From Bacteroidetes bacterium OLB11 (GTDB lineage Bacteria; Bacteroidota; Bacteroidia; Chitinophagales; Chitinophagaceae), in NCBI GenBank assembly GCA_001567165.1, contig LNFQ01000009.1:1-64000 (forward strand): a DNA stretch of 64,000 nt, written 5' to 3'. The position numbers and the translations under genes were made by a program. The first letter of the stretch is position 1. Every line of letters begins with the position of its first letter. The notes beneath the pieces are model-generated. The model ran no database searches. It saw only the letters and a program-made list of their open reading frames with translations, and was not told where the DNA came from. Below, one piece after another: positions 39,364 to 49,729 of the stretch.

Positions 39364-42300
39364 TGACGCTTTATCTTCTTCATCGTTGGTATTAAAAGGG
39401 AGGTCTATATAAAAAGTAGTTCCTTTGTGAATTTCAGATTCAAAATGAATTTTGCCTCCAAATTGTTCAATGATATCTTTGCACATAGCAAGACCAATGC
39501 CAGAGCCTGAACTTTTTGTAGTGAAGTATGGAGTAAATAAAAATGCTTTTTTATCTTCTGCTATTCCAACGCCATTATCGCTGATTGCAATTCGAATATA
39601 GCTGTTATTTAATTTTGTTAATTCGAGTGTAATATATCCTTTTTGATTGCTGGGGATTGACTGAATTGCATTTTGAATAATGTTAGTGATTACTCTAAAT
39701 AATTGATTTTTATCGACATATAATTGAATTTTGAAATTGGGTATGTAGAATAAATATTCAATATTGTTGTTGTCGTTATACAAACCGGTCGATGTAAGTA
39801 GTAATTCATAAATATCAACGTTTTCTCTTTTTACTTCTGGCAGTTTGGCATACATTGAGAAGTCGGTGGCAATAATGGTTAGCACTTCAATTTGCTCAAT
39901 TATTGTGTTTGAAACTTTTTGGGTTAGTTCTGTAATGTTTGGAGATTTATTGTTGATTGCTCTTTCCAGAATTTGTATTGAAAGTTTCATGGAGGTTAAA
40001 GGATTTTTTTATTTCATGTGCTACTTGCTTTGCCATTTCTCTCCATGCTAATTCTCTTTGATTTTTTGCAAGAAGTTTTGTACTATTTTCCAATTTTTTC
40101 AACATTCGATTGTATTGTTTAACAAGCAATCCAATTTCATCACTACTCTCCCAAACCAATGGCTCGTTCGTTTCTTCTAAGTTGATTTTTGTAAATTTAT
40201 TAACGATGATTCTGAAAGGGTTTGAAACGGATTTGCTAAGAAAATGAGAGAGAATATATACGATAAAAAATACAAAAAACTGATATGTTGATAATACGAA
40301 CAAGTAGGTCATTGGATTGTTTGGTAATTTCGTAGCTGTAAAGAATATTTGGTATTTGTACAATTGCAACTCGATTGTCAGCTTTGTCGTTTAACAGAAA
40401 ATAGCCTGCTAAATAGTTTAGTTGATTATCTGATTCATAATTGATTTCATGCTCAGAGTGATATCGAATAAGATTGTAAAAAACATTTTGAGGAATGAGA
40501 TTGCAAAAGAATCCTTTTTGGAGTAAATTGTTTTGAGTACTGTATTGTAATACGCCATCTTGAGCATTAAATAATGAAATGGAAATATTATATTTTTCGG
40601 AAAGTTGATTGGCAATATTTATTAAATTTTGAGTTTTGATAAATTGATTTTCAAATTTGGTGTTTTCGTGTAATCGACTACAATAATATAAGAATTGATT
40701 TTTTAGCATTGTTGTTTTTTGAACAAGTTTTACCTTGATTTCTTTTTCAATTTCGTTATTTGAATTTTTAATGAAAATATATCCAATAGAAAAGAAAGAT
40801 AGTAATACAATAAAGATAATCGAAATTTGAATTTTAAACCTAAGATTCAAGCTCAGTAAGTTTTTTAGCCTTTTTAAATTGAGATTTGAACGAGCGAGAA
40901 TATTACCTATAATATATAAATAAATTGTAGTAAGATAAATGAAGAAACTATATGAAAGTAAGAAAATGAATATATTGAAATAGTTATTTTTCTTAGCGAT
41001 TAAGATGCTTTTTTTAAGATTTGGAAATGCTTTATAAGTCATATTATATCCGTTGTCATAATAATGTATTGTATTATTTTTGTCTGGAAGGAAATTTCTG
41101 TTGATATCTACTCCCGAATAAAAGACGCCGTAGTCGTCACTTTGAAATACCAGTTTTTCGTTGTCATAGATTGCATAGGAATAGTTGAGAATATTAGTGT
41201 TCAGTTGATTCGTTATCGGGTTGTATAAAGTGTTTGTATTTTGAATTTGTTGATATTTTTGACTATATATTCCGATGACGATATTGCCATAATATTTTAC
41301 TGAGTCGTTGAGTTTAATGTCTAAGAGGTAAATTTGATTGTTTGTTTTATTCGTTAGAATGTTGATGCTTTTATTAAATTCAGAATTGATTTTGTTTTTG
41401 TTTCTATAAATTTCTTGAAGATTATTATTGGATAAGGTATCAAATCCATTGATATTTTTATTGTGTTTGTCAAAAATAAAAATTGCAGTTTTGGGGCTTT
41501 CTTCTATCAATGAAATATATTTAGAAAATAGATAAGAACTAATTTTTTGATAGCTTTCGCCAGCATTCATTTTTGATATAAGCGTTTTGTCTTCTTGAAT
41601 TTGATTGTATATTTTATCTAACTTAAATTCAAATTGAATATTTTTTTCTTCAATTAATTTGTCAGCAGTAAAATCAATAAATTCTCTATCTTTTTTAATA
41701 ATTAATGTTATTAAAAATAAAAGCAGAAAGAGTAGAAATAGTAATAAACCACAGGTTGAGATAATTGGAATTTAGTTCAAATTTTATTTTAGAATAGGTA
41801 AAGTCAGTGAGTAGATATATCAGTAAAATAATAGGTATATATAAAATGAGATTGACATCGTATTTGTTTGGAACAAACAAAAAGGTAATGACAAAAGTTA
41901 AAAAGATAATGAGATATTTTTGATATATATTTTTGAATATTTCTTTTAAATAAGAATTGGTAATCCAACAAACAACAAAAATATTTGCCGATATAATCAA
42001 CACGATAATATGCCCAATCAATGATAAAATGTCAATTTTAGAAATAAAAGTGATATCAAAGTTGATGACTGAATCAAAAACAAGTGCATAAATAATATTA
42101 ATTAATCTCCTAATTAAGAAACTGCCAAAAATGCTAATTATAACTGCAAATAGATAGCTGTATTTTGAATTGCTGATTTTAAATATTTTCCCTTGTATAT
42201 TAATTGCGTAAAATATGAGTGCCCAAAATGCTAAGCACATATTGATCAATAAATCTCCTATCGATTTATTGATTACATCATTGGCAAAGGTCTCTGGGTA

Positions 42301-44938: not shown

Positions 44939-47158
44939 CTAAAATGAAAATTGAGCTCCCAACATCCAACGGATACCTGATTGAGGAAAATAATAATTTT
45001 GGGTTGTCAATTGTGAATTACTGATGTAGCTATAGGTGTAGCCATTAGAGCTATACAAGTTGTTGAAAATATTATATACTCCCAATCTTATATTGAACAA
45101 AGATTTGTTCTCTAATTGAAATGGAATTTGCAGTAAAACATCACTGATAAAATATGGATTTAGCTTACGATTTTCATTTGAAGTATTATCTAAATATTGT
45201 TTCCCGACATACTTTGGCAGGATATCCAGTGAAAGGTTATTAAATGAAGCCACACCTGATTTTCGTAATGGAAAAATCGACAAACGCCCACCTACGATTA
45301 CGTTTGGTGAAAATGAAATGTCGCTCAAATGGTAAGTATTTTTTATTTGAATGTCTTGATCATAATCATCAATATATTCTGTAAATGCTTTCATTTTGTT
45401 TTGTGAAAGTGCAATATTTCCATTTGCTTCAAGTAGTCCATTTTGAGATTTATAACGCAGTTCTAGCTCAATTCCATAACGATAACTTTCATCAATATTA
45501 CTTCGTGTGTATGCACCTACATCATTGATTTGGCCGGTCAATGCTAATTGGTCTTTATAATACATTCCAAAAAGATTTGCTTGAATAACAAATTGACTTT
45601 TTATTTTTTGCATCAACGATAACTCAATATCATAAAGTGTTTCATGCTTAGGTAATTCTTTTTCACTTGCTTCAATATCATCTCGATTAGGCTCTTTTTG
45701 TGTCATACCAACCAATAGAGAAACGAAGGTTTGGTGTTGCTTATAAGTTGCTTTTATTTTTGGATTGAAAAAATGATAAACAAGATTATGCTGAATTGTC
45801 GGATTATCTCTAAAACCATTGATTAAATAATTGACATTTCGATATTGTAAATCTCCAAAAAGGGTAATTGTTTGAGTGGGTTTGTATTCCAACATAGAAT
45901 AAATATTTGCATCAGTTTTAGATGCCCATAAATCATACCAACGATAATGATTGTTTACGCCTTGCTGAGCCCAAATAATTTCGCCAAAGTGTTTTCCATC
46001 ATATTGATTTAGATTTAAATAAATTCCTGCATTTAATTTTTCTTTTAAATACAAGGCATAAAATCGGGCTCCATAAAAGTTATTTTTCAACCAAAGTTGC
46101 CTAATCATATCCGTCTTGGTGATAATGGTGTCGGGGCTTGGCTGATAATTGCTTAATCCATAGTTTTTATATTTTTGTCCGATTTTATATTGCTCATAAT
46201 ATCCTTGTCCTTTCGTCAAAAATAAGGTGCTCCCAATAGACCAAAATGAATTTACTTTTTTGTCAAAGAAAAGTTGATAATAATCTTGAGCATAATTATC
46301 GGTTTGATTTTGATAATAATTTCCGTTGCTCATTATGCCAAGTTCATTAAAAGTGCGATGTGTTGCTAAACTATCGTGTGGCACTCCATTCCATGCTTGA
46401 CCTGTTCTTTCACTACCTTTCATCATATTAAAAATGAGCTGACTGCTTGGCGAAATAAGATATTTAATGGTTGTTTGCAATGCTTTTAAATCGGAAGATG
46501 AACGCTCGATATATCCATCACTCGATATTTTAGAAAGTCGAATGGTGGCTACTAGTTTATTATCAATCAATCCGGTGCTGACTTTTAAAGTATTTTTAAA
46601 AGTATGAAAAGAACCCATATCAAAAGAGTAGGAAACACTTGGGTTTTGATAGTCAACATCTAAATTATTAATCCCAATCCCAGCTCCAAAATTACCCACT
46701 CCATTTTTTGAATTTCCTATTCCTTTGCTCACTTCTATTTGTTGTGATGATGAAAGTAAATCGGGTGTATTGACAAAAAATGTGGCTTGGCTTTCAGCAT
46801 CATTTACGGGTACTCCATTTAGTGTCACATTAATCCGTGTAATGTCAGCACCACGTATTCTGATTCCAGTGTAACCGACTCCAGCACCAGCATCAGAGCA
46901 AGAAACGACTGATGAAATGGAATTTAATAAATAAGGAATATCTTGACCTTGATTAAATTTTTGAATTGTTTTTTTGTCAAAATATCCACCAGCTTGCTCT
47001 TTAAACATTTTACTCGTGATACTTTTTTGAGCAATGATATAGCTAGCGGGCAATTCAATATTTCGAATCGTGTCTTGAATTGAATTGTCCTTAGTTTGAG
47101 AAAGCGCAAATAAATTACTTGCTAAGATGGAAAATGCAAAACATATTATTTTTTTCAT
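44939..47158 (-). CDS. TonB-dependent receptor, probably for thiamine or its precursor
   Basis: A 739-residue outer-membrane receptor with a signal peptide, a plug domain (about 60-180, with GIRIRGADITRINVTLNGVPVND) and a 22-strand-type barrel ending in GAQFSF. It lacks the N-terminal carboxypeptidase-like domain of SusC proteins. It is controlled by a TPP riboswitch (47227-47340), so the ligand is probably thiamine, thiamine phosphate or HMP; such riboswitch-TonB receptor units were predicted for Bacteroidetes. A cytoplasmic-membrane partner (PnuT or similar) is not adjacent. Confidence 0.85.
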   Translation of the reverse strand: MKKIICFAFSILASNLFALSQTKDNSIQDTIRNIELPASYIIAQKSITSKMFKEQAGGYFDKKTIQKFNQGQDIPYLLNSISSVVSCSDAGAGVGYTGIRIRGADITRINVTLNGVPVNDAESQATFFVNTPDLLSSSQQIEVSKGIGNSKNGVGNFGAGIGINNLDVDYQNPSVSYSFDMGSFHTFKNTLKVSTGLIDNKLVATIRLSKISSDGYIERSSSDLKALQTTIKYLISPSSQLIFNMMKGSERTGQAWNGVPHDSLATHRTFNELGIMSNGNYYQNQTDNYAQDYYQLFFDKKVNSFWSIGSTLFLTKGQGYYEQYKIGQKYKNYGLSNYQPSPDTIITKTDMIRQLWLKNNFYGARFYALYLKEKLNAGIYLNLNQYDGKHFGEIIWAQQGVNNHYRWYDLWASKTDANIYSMLEYKPTQTITLFGDLQYRNVNYLINGFRDNPTIQHNLVYHFFNPKIKATYKQHQTFVSLLVGMTQKEPNRDDIEASEKELPKHETLYDIELSLMQKIKSQFVIQANLFGMYYKDQLALTGQINDVGAYTRSNIDESYRYGIELELRYKSQNGLLEANGNIALSQNKMKAFTEYIDDYDQDIQIKNTYHLSDISFSPNVIVGGRLSIFPLRKSGVASFNNLSLDILPKYVGKQYLDNTSNENRKLNPYFISDVLLQIPFQLENKSLFNIRLGVYNIFNNLYSSNGYTYSYISNSQLTTQNYYFPQSGIRWMLGAQFSF

Positions 47159-47226
47159 ATACTTACTTTTTTACGTTTCAATTCAAAAAAACACTTGATA
47201 TGCTTTTTTGATTTTTATTAATAAAT

Positions 47227-47340
47227 GGTAAGTGAAATATTATTTTTGTTTCGCTTACCTTTCCTAAACAGCATTATCTGTTCAAGGTTTAACGGGTATT
47301 TTCTCAGACCATTTTTTAAGATGGACACCCCGAGGTAATT
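47227..47340 (-). promoter_or_regulatory. TPP (thi-box) riboswitch
   Basis: Minus-strand RNA carries TPP-aptamer landmarks: CGGGGTG, CTGAGA, ACCCGT, AACCT and GATAATGC between 47334 and 47265. TTACCT and AGGTAA form P1. The 3' arm of P1 can also pair with CTTACC at 47232-47227 in a hairpin, giving a mutually exclusive expression platform. It lies between the promoter and the TonB receptor gene, so thiamine pyrophosphate should shut the receptor down. Confidence 0.9.
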
Positions 47341-47372
47341 CAATTCTAAAATGAACTAAAATTGTTTGTCGG

Positions 47373-47380
47373 CAAATTTA
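47373..47380 (-). promoter_or_regulatory. -7 box for the riboswitch-receptor transcript
   Basis: TAAATTTG (minus strand) matches TAnnTTTG about 33 bp upstream of the aptamer, placing the start point close to the riboswitch 5' end. Confidence 0.5.
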
Positions 47381-47443: not shown

Positions 47444-49729
47444 ATGAAAAAAGCAAATCTCATTTTGATATTTTTTCTCTCCTTTTATTCTATTCCGCTT
47501 TTTGCAAACCCTTCGCATATCCAAGTTCTGAAAGATACACCTGAGTTCACTCTCATCGAAGTTCAAATGGGGGCATGGACAGAAAATGAAGTGCAAACTC
47601 CACTCGGAATCTATTCTTCAATCAGCATGCAAAACACAACACCTTATTTGATGAAAGGAGCACCAGAGCTTCCCAAATTAAGTTTTTCACTTGCATTGCC
47701 TGGAGCTGTAGATGTCCAATATGAAATCATAGAAAGTCATTATACAGATTATGAAAATAAATTCATCGCTCCATCAAAAGGTAGTGTATCTAGAACAATG
47801 AAAAAGTCTGAAATCCCTTTTCTATTTGGAGATATTTACAACAAAAATGAATTTTTTCCCAATACCAATGTGCAACTTTCGACTCCTTATATTTTAAGAG
47901 ATATCAATGGGCAAACCGTACATGTTTTTCCTTTTCAATACAATCCTATTTCAAAAGTATTAAGAGTATATCATGATATTAAAATTAAAATAAATTATAC
48001 CAATTCCCAAACTAAACAAGTCAATACCATTGATGCAAATCCAGCTACTGTGGATGAAACTTTTTTCGGAATTTATGAGAATCATTTTTTAAATTTTACA
48101 AAATTTAAAAAGACAAGATACACGCCCATCACTGAAAATGGAAGCTTGCTGATACTTAGTCCCAACCAATATCTCAATGATATAATGCCTCTCGTGAAAT
48201 GGAAACAAATGAAAGGATTTCGTACTATTTTAGTCAATGCGGATACGATGTCAGGAGGGGTAACTGAAGCCTCTGTCAGAGCTTTAGCAAAACATTATTA
48301 TACACAAAATCAAATCGCATATATGTTGATTATTGGTGATCATAATGATATCCCTACTGCAAATGCCAATTTCAATAATCCCGATTTGGCAGGGCCTTCT
48401 GATATTTCTTATGCGTACATTTCAGGGAATGACCATTATCCTGAATTTGTTGTTGGACGACTTTCAGGTGAAAGCTCAATGGATATTCAAAGTATGGTGA
48501 ATCGAACAATTGAATATGAAAAAACACCAAATACATTAAGCAGTTGGATGACTCAACAAATTGGCATTGCAAGTGAAGAGGGGACAGGTGATGATAATCA
48601 ATATGACTTTGAGCATATCCATGAAATTGTGGACAGTAATGTTAATTTAGGCAACTATACCTACTATTATGAATTGTATGATGGAGTGCAATCAAAAGGA
48701 TGGAATGATGCACCGGGTTTCCCAACAGCAAACGACTTAAAAAACCTAATCAATAGTGGTGCAAGCCTCATTAATTATACAGGCCATGGTGGTGCTTTGG
48801 GACTTGTGACTACCTCATTTGATATTTCAAATGTTCCAACATTATCAAATTTAAACAAACTCCCATTCCTATATGTAGTAGGTTGCAGCCCCGGTCGATT
48901 TTATAATCAAACTTGCTTTGCCGAATCCCTCATGCGTGCTGGAAGTGCAGCCAATCCTTACGGAACCATATCAAATTATATGTCCACCATTGATCAATAT
49001 TGGGATGAGCCCATGGAAGCACAAGACGAATTTAATGGCATTATGAGAGGTGGAAGACCTAATAATTTACAATCCAGATTGGGGGCAATGTGTGTCAATT
49101 CTTGCTGTGCGATGAATGATAAATACAACACATGGGCTGATCCAACCGGTGGAAGTGATATGACTGATACATGGGTGTTTTTTGGGGATCCAACAGTTTC
49201 ACTTTATAATAAAAATGAGGGTACAATCAATTGCACACACACTGCTGAAATTGGTGTAAACTCTACATGGTACTCTGTTAGCTGTCCTGTGGAAGGGGCT
49301 ACTATTGGGCTTTATTATTTAGGAACTTATCTGGCATCTTCAAAGGTTGCAGGAGGTGTAGCCACTTTTACTTTCCCTTCAATCGGCAATTTAGATACGG
49401 TATTTATTACAGCCACCAAACAAAATTATACTCCTTATTTTGGCTATGCTCAAGTTGTCAATTTTCCTAATAATTATAATCAATATGAAAAGGACGATGC
49501 TCTCTTGTTGTATCCAAATCCTAGCATTGACTTTGCAATTTTACAAACAAAACCAGATGAGCCAATCAAAAAAATACAATTGTTTGATATAAAAGGAGTA
49601 TTGATTTTTGAAGAAAAGATTAATCATTCATTTTATAAATTAAACACTAAAATATATCCAAAAGGAAACTACCTTTTAAAAATTTCAACAACTGATAATT
49701 CCCTTTTTAGAAAATTAAGAATAGAGTAA
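47444..49729 (+). CDS. Gingipain-like C25 cysteine peptidase with T9SS tail
   Basis: A 761-residue secreted protease. It has a signal peptide (MKKANLILIFFLSFYSIPLFA), a propeptide-like N-terminal domain (to about 220), a C25 catalytic domain with the His in YTGHGG (about 446) and the Cys in VVGCSPG (about 481), an Ig-like domain, and a C-terminal type IX sorting domain (YPNPS..., KGNYLLKI...LRIE). It should be surface-exposed and degrade proteins or activate other secreted products. Divergent from the TPP-riboswitch unit and 2 bp upstream of kdsD. Confidence 0.85.
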   Translation: MKKANLILIFFLSFYSIPLFANPSHIQVLKDTPEFTLIEVQMGAWTENEVQTPLGIYSSISMQNTTPYLMKGAPELPKLSFSLALPGAVDVQYEIIESHYTDYENKFIAPSKGSVSRTMKKSEIPFLFGDIYNKNEFFPNTNVQLSTPYILRDINGQTVHVFPFQYNPISKVLRVYHDIKIKINYTNSQTKQVNTIDANPATVDETFFGIYENHFLNFTKFKKTRYTPITENGSLLILSPNQYLNDIMPLVKWKQMKGFRTILVNADTMSGGVTEASVRALAKHYYTQNQIAYMLIIGDHNDIPTANANFNNPDLAGPSDISYAYISGNDHYPEFVVGRLSGESSMDIQSMVNRTIEYEKTPNTLSSWMTQQIGIASEEGTGDDNQYDFEHIHEIVDSNVNLGNYTYYYELYDGVQSKGWNDAPGFPTANDLKNLINSGASLINYTGHGGALGLVTTSFDISNVPTLSNLNKLPFLYVVGCSPGRFYNQTCFAESLMRAGSAANPYGTISNYMSTIDQYWDEPMEAQDEFNGIMRGGRPNNLQSRLGAMCVNSCCAMNDKYNTWADPTGGSDMTDTWVFFGDPTVSLYNKNEGTINCTHTAEIGVNSTWYSVSCPVEGATIGLYYLGTYLASSKVAGGVATFTFPSIGNLDTVFITATKQNYTPYFGYAQVVNFPNNYNQYEKDDALLLYPNPSIDFAILQTKPDEPIKKIQLFDIKGVLIFEEKINHSFYKLNTKIYPKGNYLLKISTTDNSLFRKLRIE

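Follow-up and report, generated by a model that had tools for sequence, protein, structure and literature searches.

We found that the window, the 64,000-nucleotide stretch of DNA analysed here, contains a genuine riboswitch on its minus strand. Its sequence points to a variant that derives from the TPP aptamer rather than to a plain member of RF00059, because two defining features of that family that were examined, the gathering score and the pyrophosphate internal loop, were lacking. The mechanism that we favour, with reasonable but not high confidence, is that the riboswitch acts in cis, has its origin in the TPP (THI-box) aptamer and responds to a thiamine compound by reducing expression of the TonB-dependent receptor downstream, which would import thiamine or one of its phosphate esters. 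The part of the aptamer that grips the pyrophosphate was rebuilt identically in about a hundred bacteria examined. Among the sequences compared, Chitinophagaceae and two further families keep this remodelled form, and they keep it ahead of TonB-type receptors. It is through the pyrophosphate pocket that TPP riboswitches distinguish the coenzyme from the free vitamin; a conserved natural aptamer lacking this pocket would show either that a widespread aptamer can be re-aimed or that TPP can be held another way.

The aptamer and its locus

A search with the RF00059 model, which had been proposed together with the original prediction, gave a match at 47342–47244 of the minus strand (cmscan, 381-base search). 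The match covered the whole model (1–105) with 53.0 bits (E 9e-10), a small shortfall from the Rfam gathering score of 54.3 bits. Hence the aptamer is absent from a window-wide default Rfam search, which at gathering level returned two tRNAs only and no RF00059. When the 2.19-Mb genome was searched with the model, the copy in the window was the single match. The named proteins closest to the downstream receptor suggest that this genome belongs to Chitinophagaceae. The aptamer region was also more stably folded than dinucleotide shuffles (z −3.3).

The aptamer (47342–47244) is followed on the minus strand by a hairpin (47259–47227) and, 86 nt after the aptamer, by the gene for a TonB-dependent receptor of 739 aa (47158–44939), identified by its Plug domain (PF07715, E 1e-8). 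A TonB receptor thus lies directly after a THI-type aptamer, as at OMthi (BT2390) of Bacteroides thetaiotaomicron, a system in which a TPP-class riboswitch was already known to be combined with a TonB receptor for thiamine (PMC5613172). The tie between receptor and thiamine that had been predicted was corroborated both by OMthi (PMC5613172) and by the same arrangement at 51 of the 52 related variant loci. It is the riboswitch that suggests the substrate, and by this token the receptor would import thiamine or a phosphate ester. No inner-membrane thiamine transporter had been seen to follow the receptor, which was right locally, the neighbour being an oppositely transcribed methyltransferase; the genome does, however, carry one PnuC/PnuT-family gene, a putative transporter, on another contig. 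Likewise in B. thetaiotaomicron, pnuT is on a separate transcript from OMthi (PMC5613172). On the other side of the locus, a gene for a gingipain-family peptidase (C25) that carries a C-terminal sorting domain for type IX secretion (47444–49729, plus strand) is divergent from the receptor gene, and the two have a common upstream region.

Remodelling of the P4–P5 element

The window aptamer resembles the TPP aptamer (RF00059) in its P1–P5 architecture, its pyrimidine pocket (GGGGUG, CUGAGA and ACCC), its UAAUG loop and its THI-linked gene. The P2–P3 pyrimidine-sensing helix is present, and the J3-2 T-loop CUGAGA (47302–47307) was intact in the window as in 53/53 variant and 36/36 canonical aptamers; indeed the pyrimidine-sensing half was intact in every aptamer row compared. 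The L5 UAAU loop, which docks on P3, is also retained, as AUAAUG in the window and as RTAAYR in 53/53 variant rows. The difference lies in the P4–P5 element ACCUUGAACAGAUAAUGCUGUUUAGG (47263–47288), where the Rfam alignment has no J5-4 CG and the J4-5/J5-4 loop is zipped into a near-continuous P4–P5 helix. The original prediction that all aptamer landmarks are present therefore did not hold, for the J5-4 CG is missing and the score is below gathering (53.0 versus 54.3 bits).

In the Escherichia coli aptamer, the pyrophosphate is held through a metal coordinated by G60, C77 and G78, and is also contacted directly by G78 (PMC3764141). Canonical aptamers of the family read CCUG-AU-P5-loop-P5′-CG-N-AGG, with G60 and C77–G78 (thiM numbering) in 35/35 scored, whereas the sequence in the window and in 52 further leaders is CCU-(N)-G-A-P5-loop-P5′-U-U-AGG. 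The internal loop formed by G60 and C77–G78 was accordingly not found in the window: the J5-4 CG, corresponding to thiM C77–G78, is swapped for bases that pair with J4-5. The resulting near-continuous helix comprises P4 CCU:AGG, a bulged U47284, P5 ACAG:CUGU and the loop AUAAUG, with a G.U and an A-U pair occupying the place of the canonical internal loop.

The replacement proved highly regular. The CG occurred in 0/53 variant rows, the closing pair was A-U in 52/53, and in 49/53 AGG was preceded by a single U; one row, L048, is included in these counts but is exceptional in its closing C-G. Among 26 distinct variant elements the helix was paired in 98.3% of cells, the G.U and A-U pairs were invariant and compensatory changes were found at two pairs (22 cells). 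These pair counts apply to 26-base elements only, three 25-base elements that MAFFT misplaced having been left out. In L126 and L128 the helix is continuous and has no bulge. The view that G60 is certainly lost was withdrawn, since in L126, from Chitinophaga, the 5′ strand is still the canonical CCTGATCAGG and the change is confined to the 3′ strand. For the same reason the variable base may be an insertion, and if it is an inserted bulge, a G60-equivalent G may remain in the variant.

Canonical aptamers bind thiamine with a KD of 50 μM and TPP with a KD of 50 nM, a ~1000-fold difference (quoted in PMC4112796), which indicates that the pyrophosphate pocket matters. Our literature search, which covered open-licence papers and lay outside the Weinberg 2017 variant survey, found no description of the zipped P4–P5 variant. 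The HMP-PP (thiS motif) riboswitch resembles the window element in sensing part of the thiamine pathway, but its compact aptamer lies inside a terminator stem and the two have no architecture in common (PMC6478431).

Distribution of the variant and its ligand

When genomes were searched with an exact pattern, the variant element was found in 77 of 394 Chitinophagaceae genomes. In a phylum-wide sample of 395 genomes the same pattern matched 23; 20 of these were in two families (f23 and f24, which we take to be perhaps Flavobacteriales) of the same class, and none of the 395 had an exact match outside the class. A reversed control pattern gave 0 matches in the same genome sets, and each positive genome had one copy. 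At the 52 loci that were read, CTGAGA was upstream of the variant element in every case, and a long TonB-receptor-type open reading frame (ORF) was downstream in 51, the remaining locus having no ORF in reach. The readable thiC and pnuT leaders keep the canonical CG and the variant was never ahead of either gene there; two genomes (G014 and G019) combine a canonical motif at thiC with the variant at a TonB leader. Infernal detected 19 of the 20 copies from f23 and f24, at 35–47 bits and all below the gathering score, as were 8 of the 10 other members of the window genus with an RF00059 match, so that catalogues applying this score would miss many members. In an order-level relative (L003/L071, G047:C68:13145-13361), two tandem TPP aptamers precede a single TonB-receptor gene.

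The receptors of the genus form one family with 50–60% identity. A tree built from 143 receptors shows at least four interchanges between the canonical and the variant aptamer within one receptor family, a count that leaves out the receptor rows L048 and L158, which have another J5-4 form and were labelled variant by the script. Niabella-type loci (L047, L133, L134, L139 and L141) combine a canonical aptamer and leader with receptors that cluster with those bearing the variant. Their start region (ATGAAGAGG, with CCTCTCAT upstream) matches the leaders of another clade, suggesting that the whole leader or 5′ region may have been exchanged.

What, then, does the variant bind? The thiamine-linked control that had been predicted is well supported, but the altered pyrophosphate pocket makes TPP uncertain as the ligand. 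We put at about even the chance that this is an ordinary TPP riboswitch, in which the P4–P5 changes are neutral or tune affinity and TPP is held another way. The repeated interchange of both aptamers on homologous receptors is easier to understand if they share a ligand, and the rest of the aptamer is canonical, down to the UAAU loop that docks on P3. However, few residues of the class are as conserved as the lost C77–G78, to which the pyrophosphate metal is bound (PMC3764141), the weak binding of thiamine by canonical aptamers (PMC4112796) speaks for the importance of the pocket, the replacement is itself strictly conserved, unlike neutral drift, and, within the family, none of the thiC and pnuT leaders read has the variant.

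A change of specificity, with thiamine or TMP preferred over TPP and the importer controlled by its own substrate or that of ThiL, is a more tentative reading. It would account for a zipped pyrophosphate pocket beside a preserved pyrimidine pocket, and for the confinement of the variant to importer genes while biosynthesis stays canonical in the same genomes. The thiamine metabolism of the genus also bears on it. ThiC, ThiE and a recognisable TPK were all missing from the genus genomes searched, whereas ThiL was found in 13 of 14 and a PnuC-family gene in 12 of 14. Because ThiL and one PnuC-family transporter are kept when the other enzymes are gone, the gene content indicates that the genus depends on imported thiamine or TMP. 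B. thetaiotaomicron, in contrast, makes thiamine and has TPP riboswitches at its biosynthesis and pnuT operons, while the window genome has a single riboswitch. Either TMP, or thiamine by way of a kinase not yet recognised, must be imported to feed ThiL, which makes both compounds attractive as ligands, and with ThiL present but ThiC, ThiE and a recognisable TPK missing, TMP is the only known route to TPP in this genus. If the switch senses either one, import and the ThiL route would be directly linked in auxotrophs that have ThiL and lack TPK.

Against this reading, both kinds of aptamer interchange on one receptor family as if they were equivalent, and the lack of TPK is family-wide and so is not tied to the variant. 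Only 3 of 157 Chitinophagaceae genomes have TPK (PF04263); absence of TPK as the cause of the variant was rejected, as the 154 genomes without it include genomes with canonical aptamers. Nearly all members of the family carry TPP-class riboswitches despite the rarity of TPK, and it seems likely that they have an unrecognised thiamine kinase or TPK. The fullest form of the specificity reading is a TPP-aptamer subclass, found in three or more families of a single Bacteroidota class and mostly concealed by scores under Rfam's cut-off, that has lost the pyrophosphate pocket, senses thiamine or TMP and controls only TonB importers of vitamin B1; this we consider slightly less probable again.

The P1/hairpin switch and its output

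The 5′ strand of P1, UUACCU (47333–47338), pairs with the 3′ strand AGGUAA (47255–47260), which is common to P1 and the downstream hairpin. The latter (GGUAAGCGAAA/UUUCACUUACC, 47259–47227) uses the same GGUAA, so that the P1 3′ strand pairs alternatively with CTTACC at 47232–47227, and the hairpin GGUAAG..CUUACC and P1 are mutually exclusive. The calculated energies were −3.7 kcal/mol for P1 and −9.4 kcal/mol for the hairpin, which belongs to the minimum free energy fold of the region. With P2–P5 kept, the hairpin state had −24.1 kcal/mol versus −18.4 kcal/mol for the P1 state, suggesting that the hairpin should win by ~5.7 kcal/mol when no ligand is bound. The hairpin is kept in the genus, either exactly or with G.U changes (one mismatch in L039), and the P1 5′ strand varies there (TTACC, TAGCC, AAACC and others). 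It was also found in Chitinophaga and two Taibaiella-like genomes, and is exact in 28 of 97 variant leaders; other than in the genus, in Chitinophaga and in a few Taibaiella-like genomes, most of these leaders are without it. These energies, together with the recurrence in the genus and in Chitinophaga, confirmed the mutual exclusion originally predicted from the window.

In the mechanism that we favour, binding of a thiamine compound would lock P1, and the locked P1 would block the hairpin and turn the receptor gene off, ligand-dependent repression being assumed by analogy with the class. Without ligand, the hairpin would form first and leave the gene on. That the hairpin is instead a transcription terminator, through which ligand turns the gene on, is improbable: the hairpin does form when P1 does not, and in one relative (L032) CTTTTTT comes after CTTACC, but neither the window nor most relatives have a terminator-like U-tract, and a vitamin importer switched ON by the ligand would go against what is known of the class. 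An intrinsic terminator was sought in the window and rejected, no U-tract following the hairpin. A decayed, non-functional remnant, to which the sub-gathering scores of the window, the 8 of 10 other matching genus members and all 19 detected f23 and f24 copies might point, is very improbable given the strict conservation, the compensatory changes and the constant gene context across families.

The output is probably translational, since there is no U-tract terminator. In the same direction, Bacteroidetes do without Shine–Dalgarno sites and adjust initiation through structure in the start region (PMC6847099), and OMthi transcript levels in B. thetaiotaomicron are unchanged by thiamine (PMC5613172). 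The title of a 2019 preprint has Bacteroides TPP riboswitches regulating transcription or translation (cited in PMC7366714).

For such an output, a candidate is a pairing that would hide the start codon. In the window, the 3′ arm of the hairpin, UUUCACUUAC, is complementary to GUAAGUAUAUGAAA at the start codon (47153–47166), and complementarity as good as this arose in 2.7% of shuffles (p 0.027). With P1 open, hairpin and sequestor were within ~1.3 kcal/mol of each other; with P1 formed, the sequestor was favoured by ~10 kcal/mol, so that P1 formation moves the balance from the hairpin to the candidate sequestor by ~9 kcal/mol. Across leaders, duplexes between leader and start region were slightly stronger than in dinucleotide shuffles (mean z −0.47, p 6e-4) and stronger than in swapped pairs (p 5e-5), a comparison that composition confounds. 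Equilibrium folding of the leaders revealed no general P1-dependent effect on the start region, and in a forced-state comparison of 25 hairpin leaders the change in accessibility was 0.018 for their own and 0.012 for swapped start regions (p 0.36). Start-codon sequestration was thus rejected as a general mechanism, and because both comparative foldings lacked a P1-dependent effect we keep the sequestor as a hypothetical, weakly supported candidate for the window alone.

Leader segments complementary to the receptor start codon or first codons were also seen in several clades, namely TGTTCCCA..TGGGAACA in L015, L019, L027 and L142, CCTCTCAT..ATGAAGAGG in L023, L025, L029, L133 and L139, and GCATGGC..GCCATGC in L093, L096 and L097. 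These segments are clade-specific: their sequences differ by clade and the complementarity persists.

Elsewhere in the window, a sensor histidine kinase (39947–41570, minus strand) is seemingly split into two overlapping ORFs in different frames, the second of which ends just after the histidine-box motif REMAKQVAHEIK. This appears to be a frameshifted gene or an assembly error.
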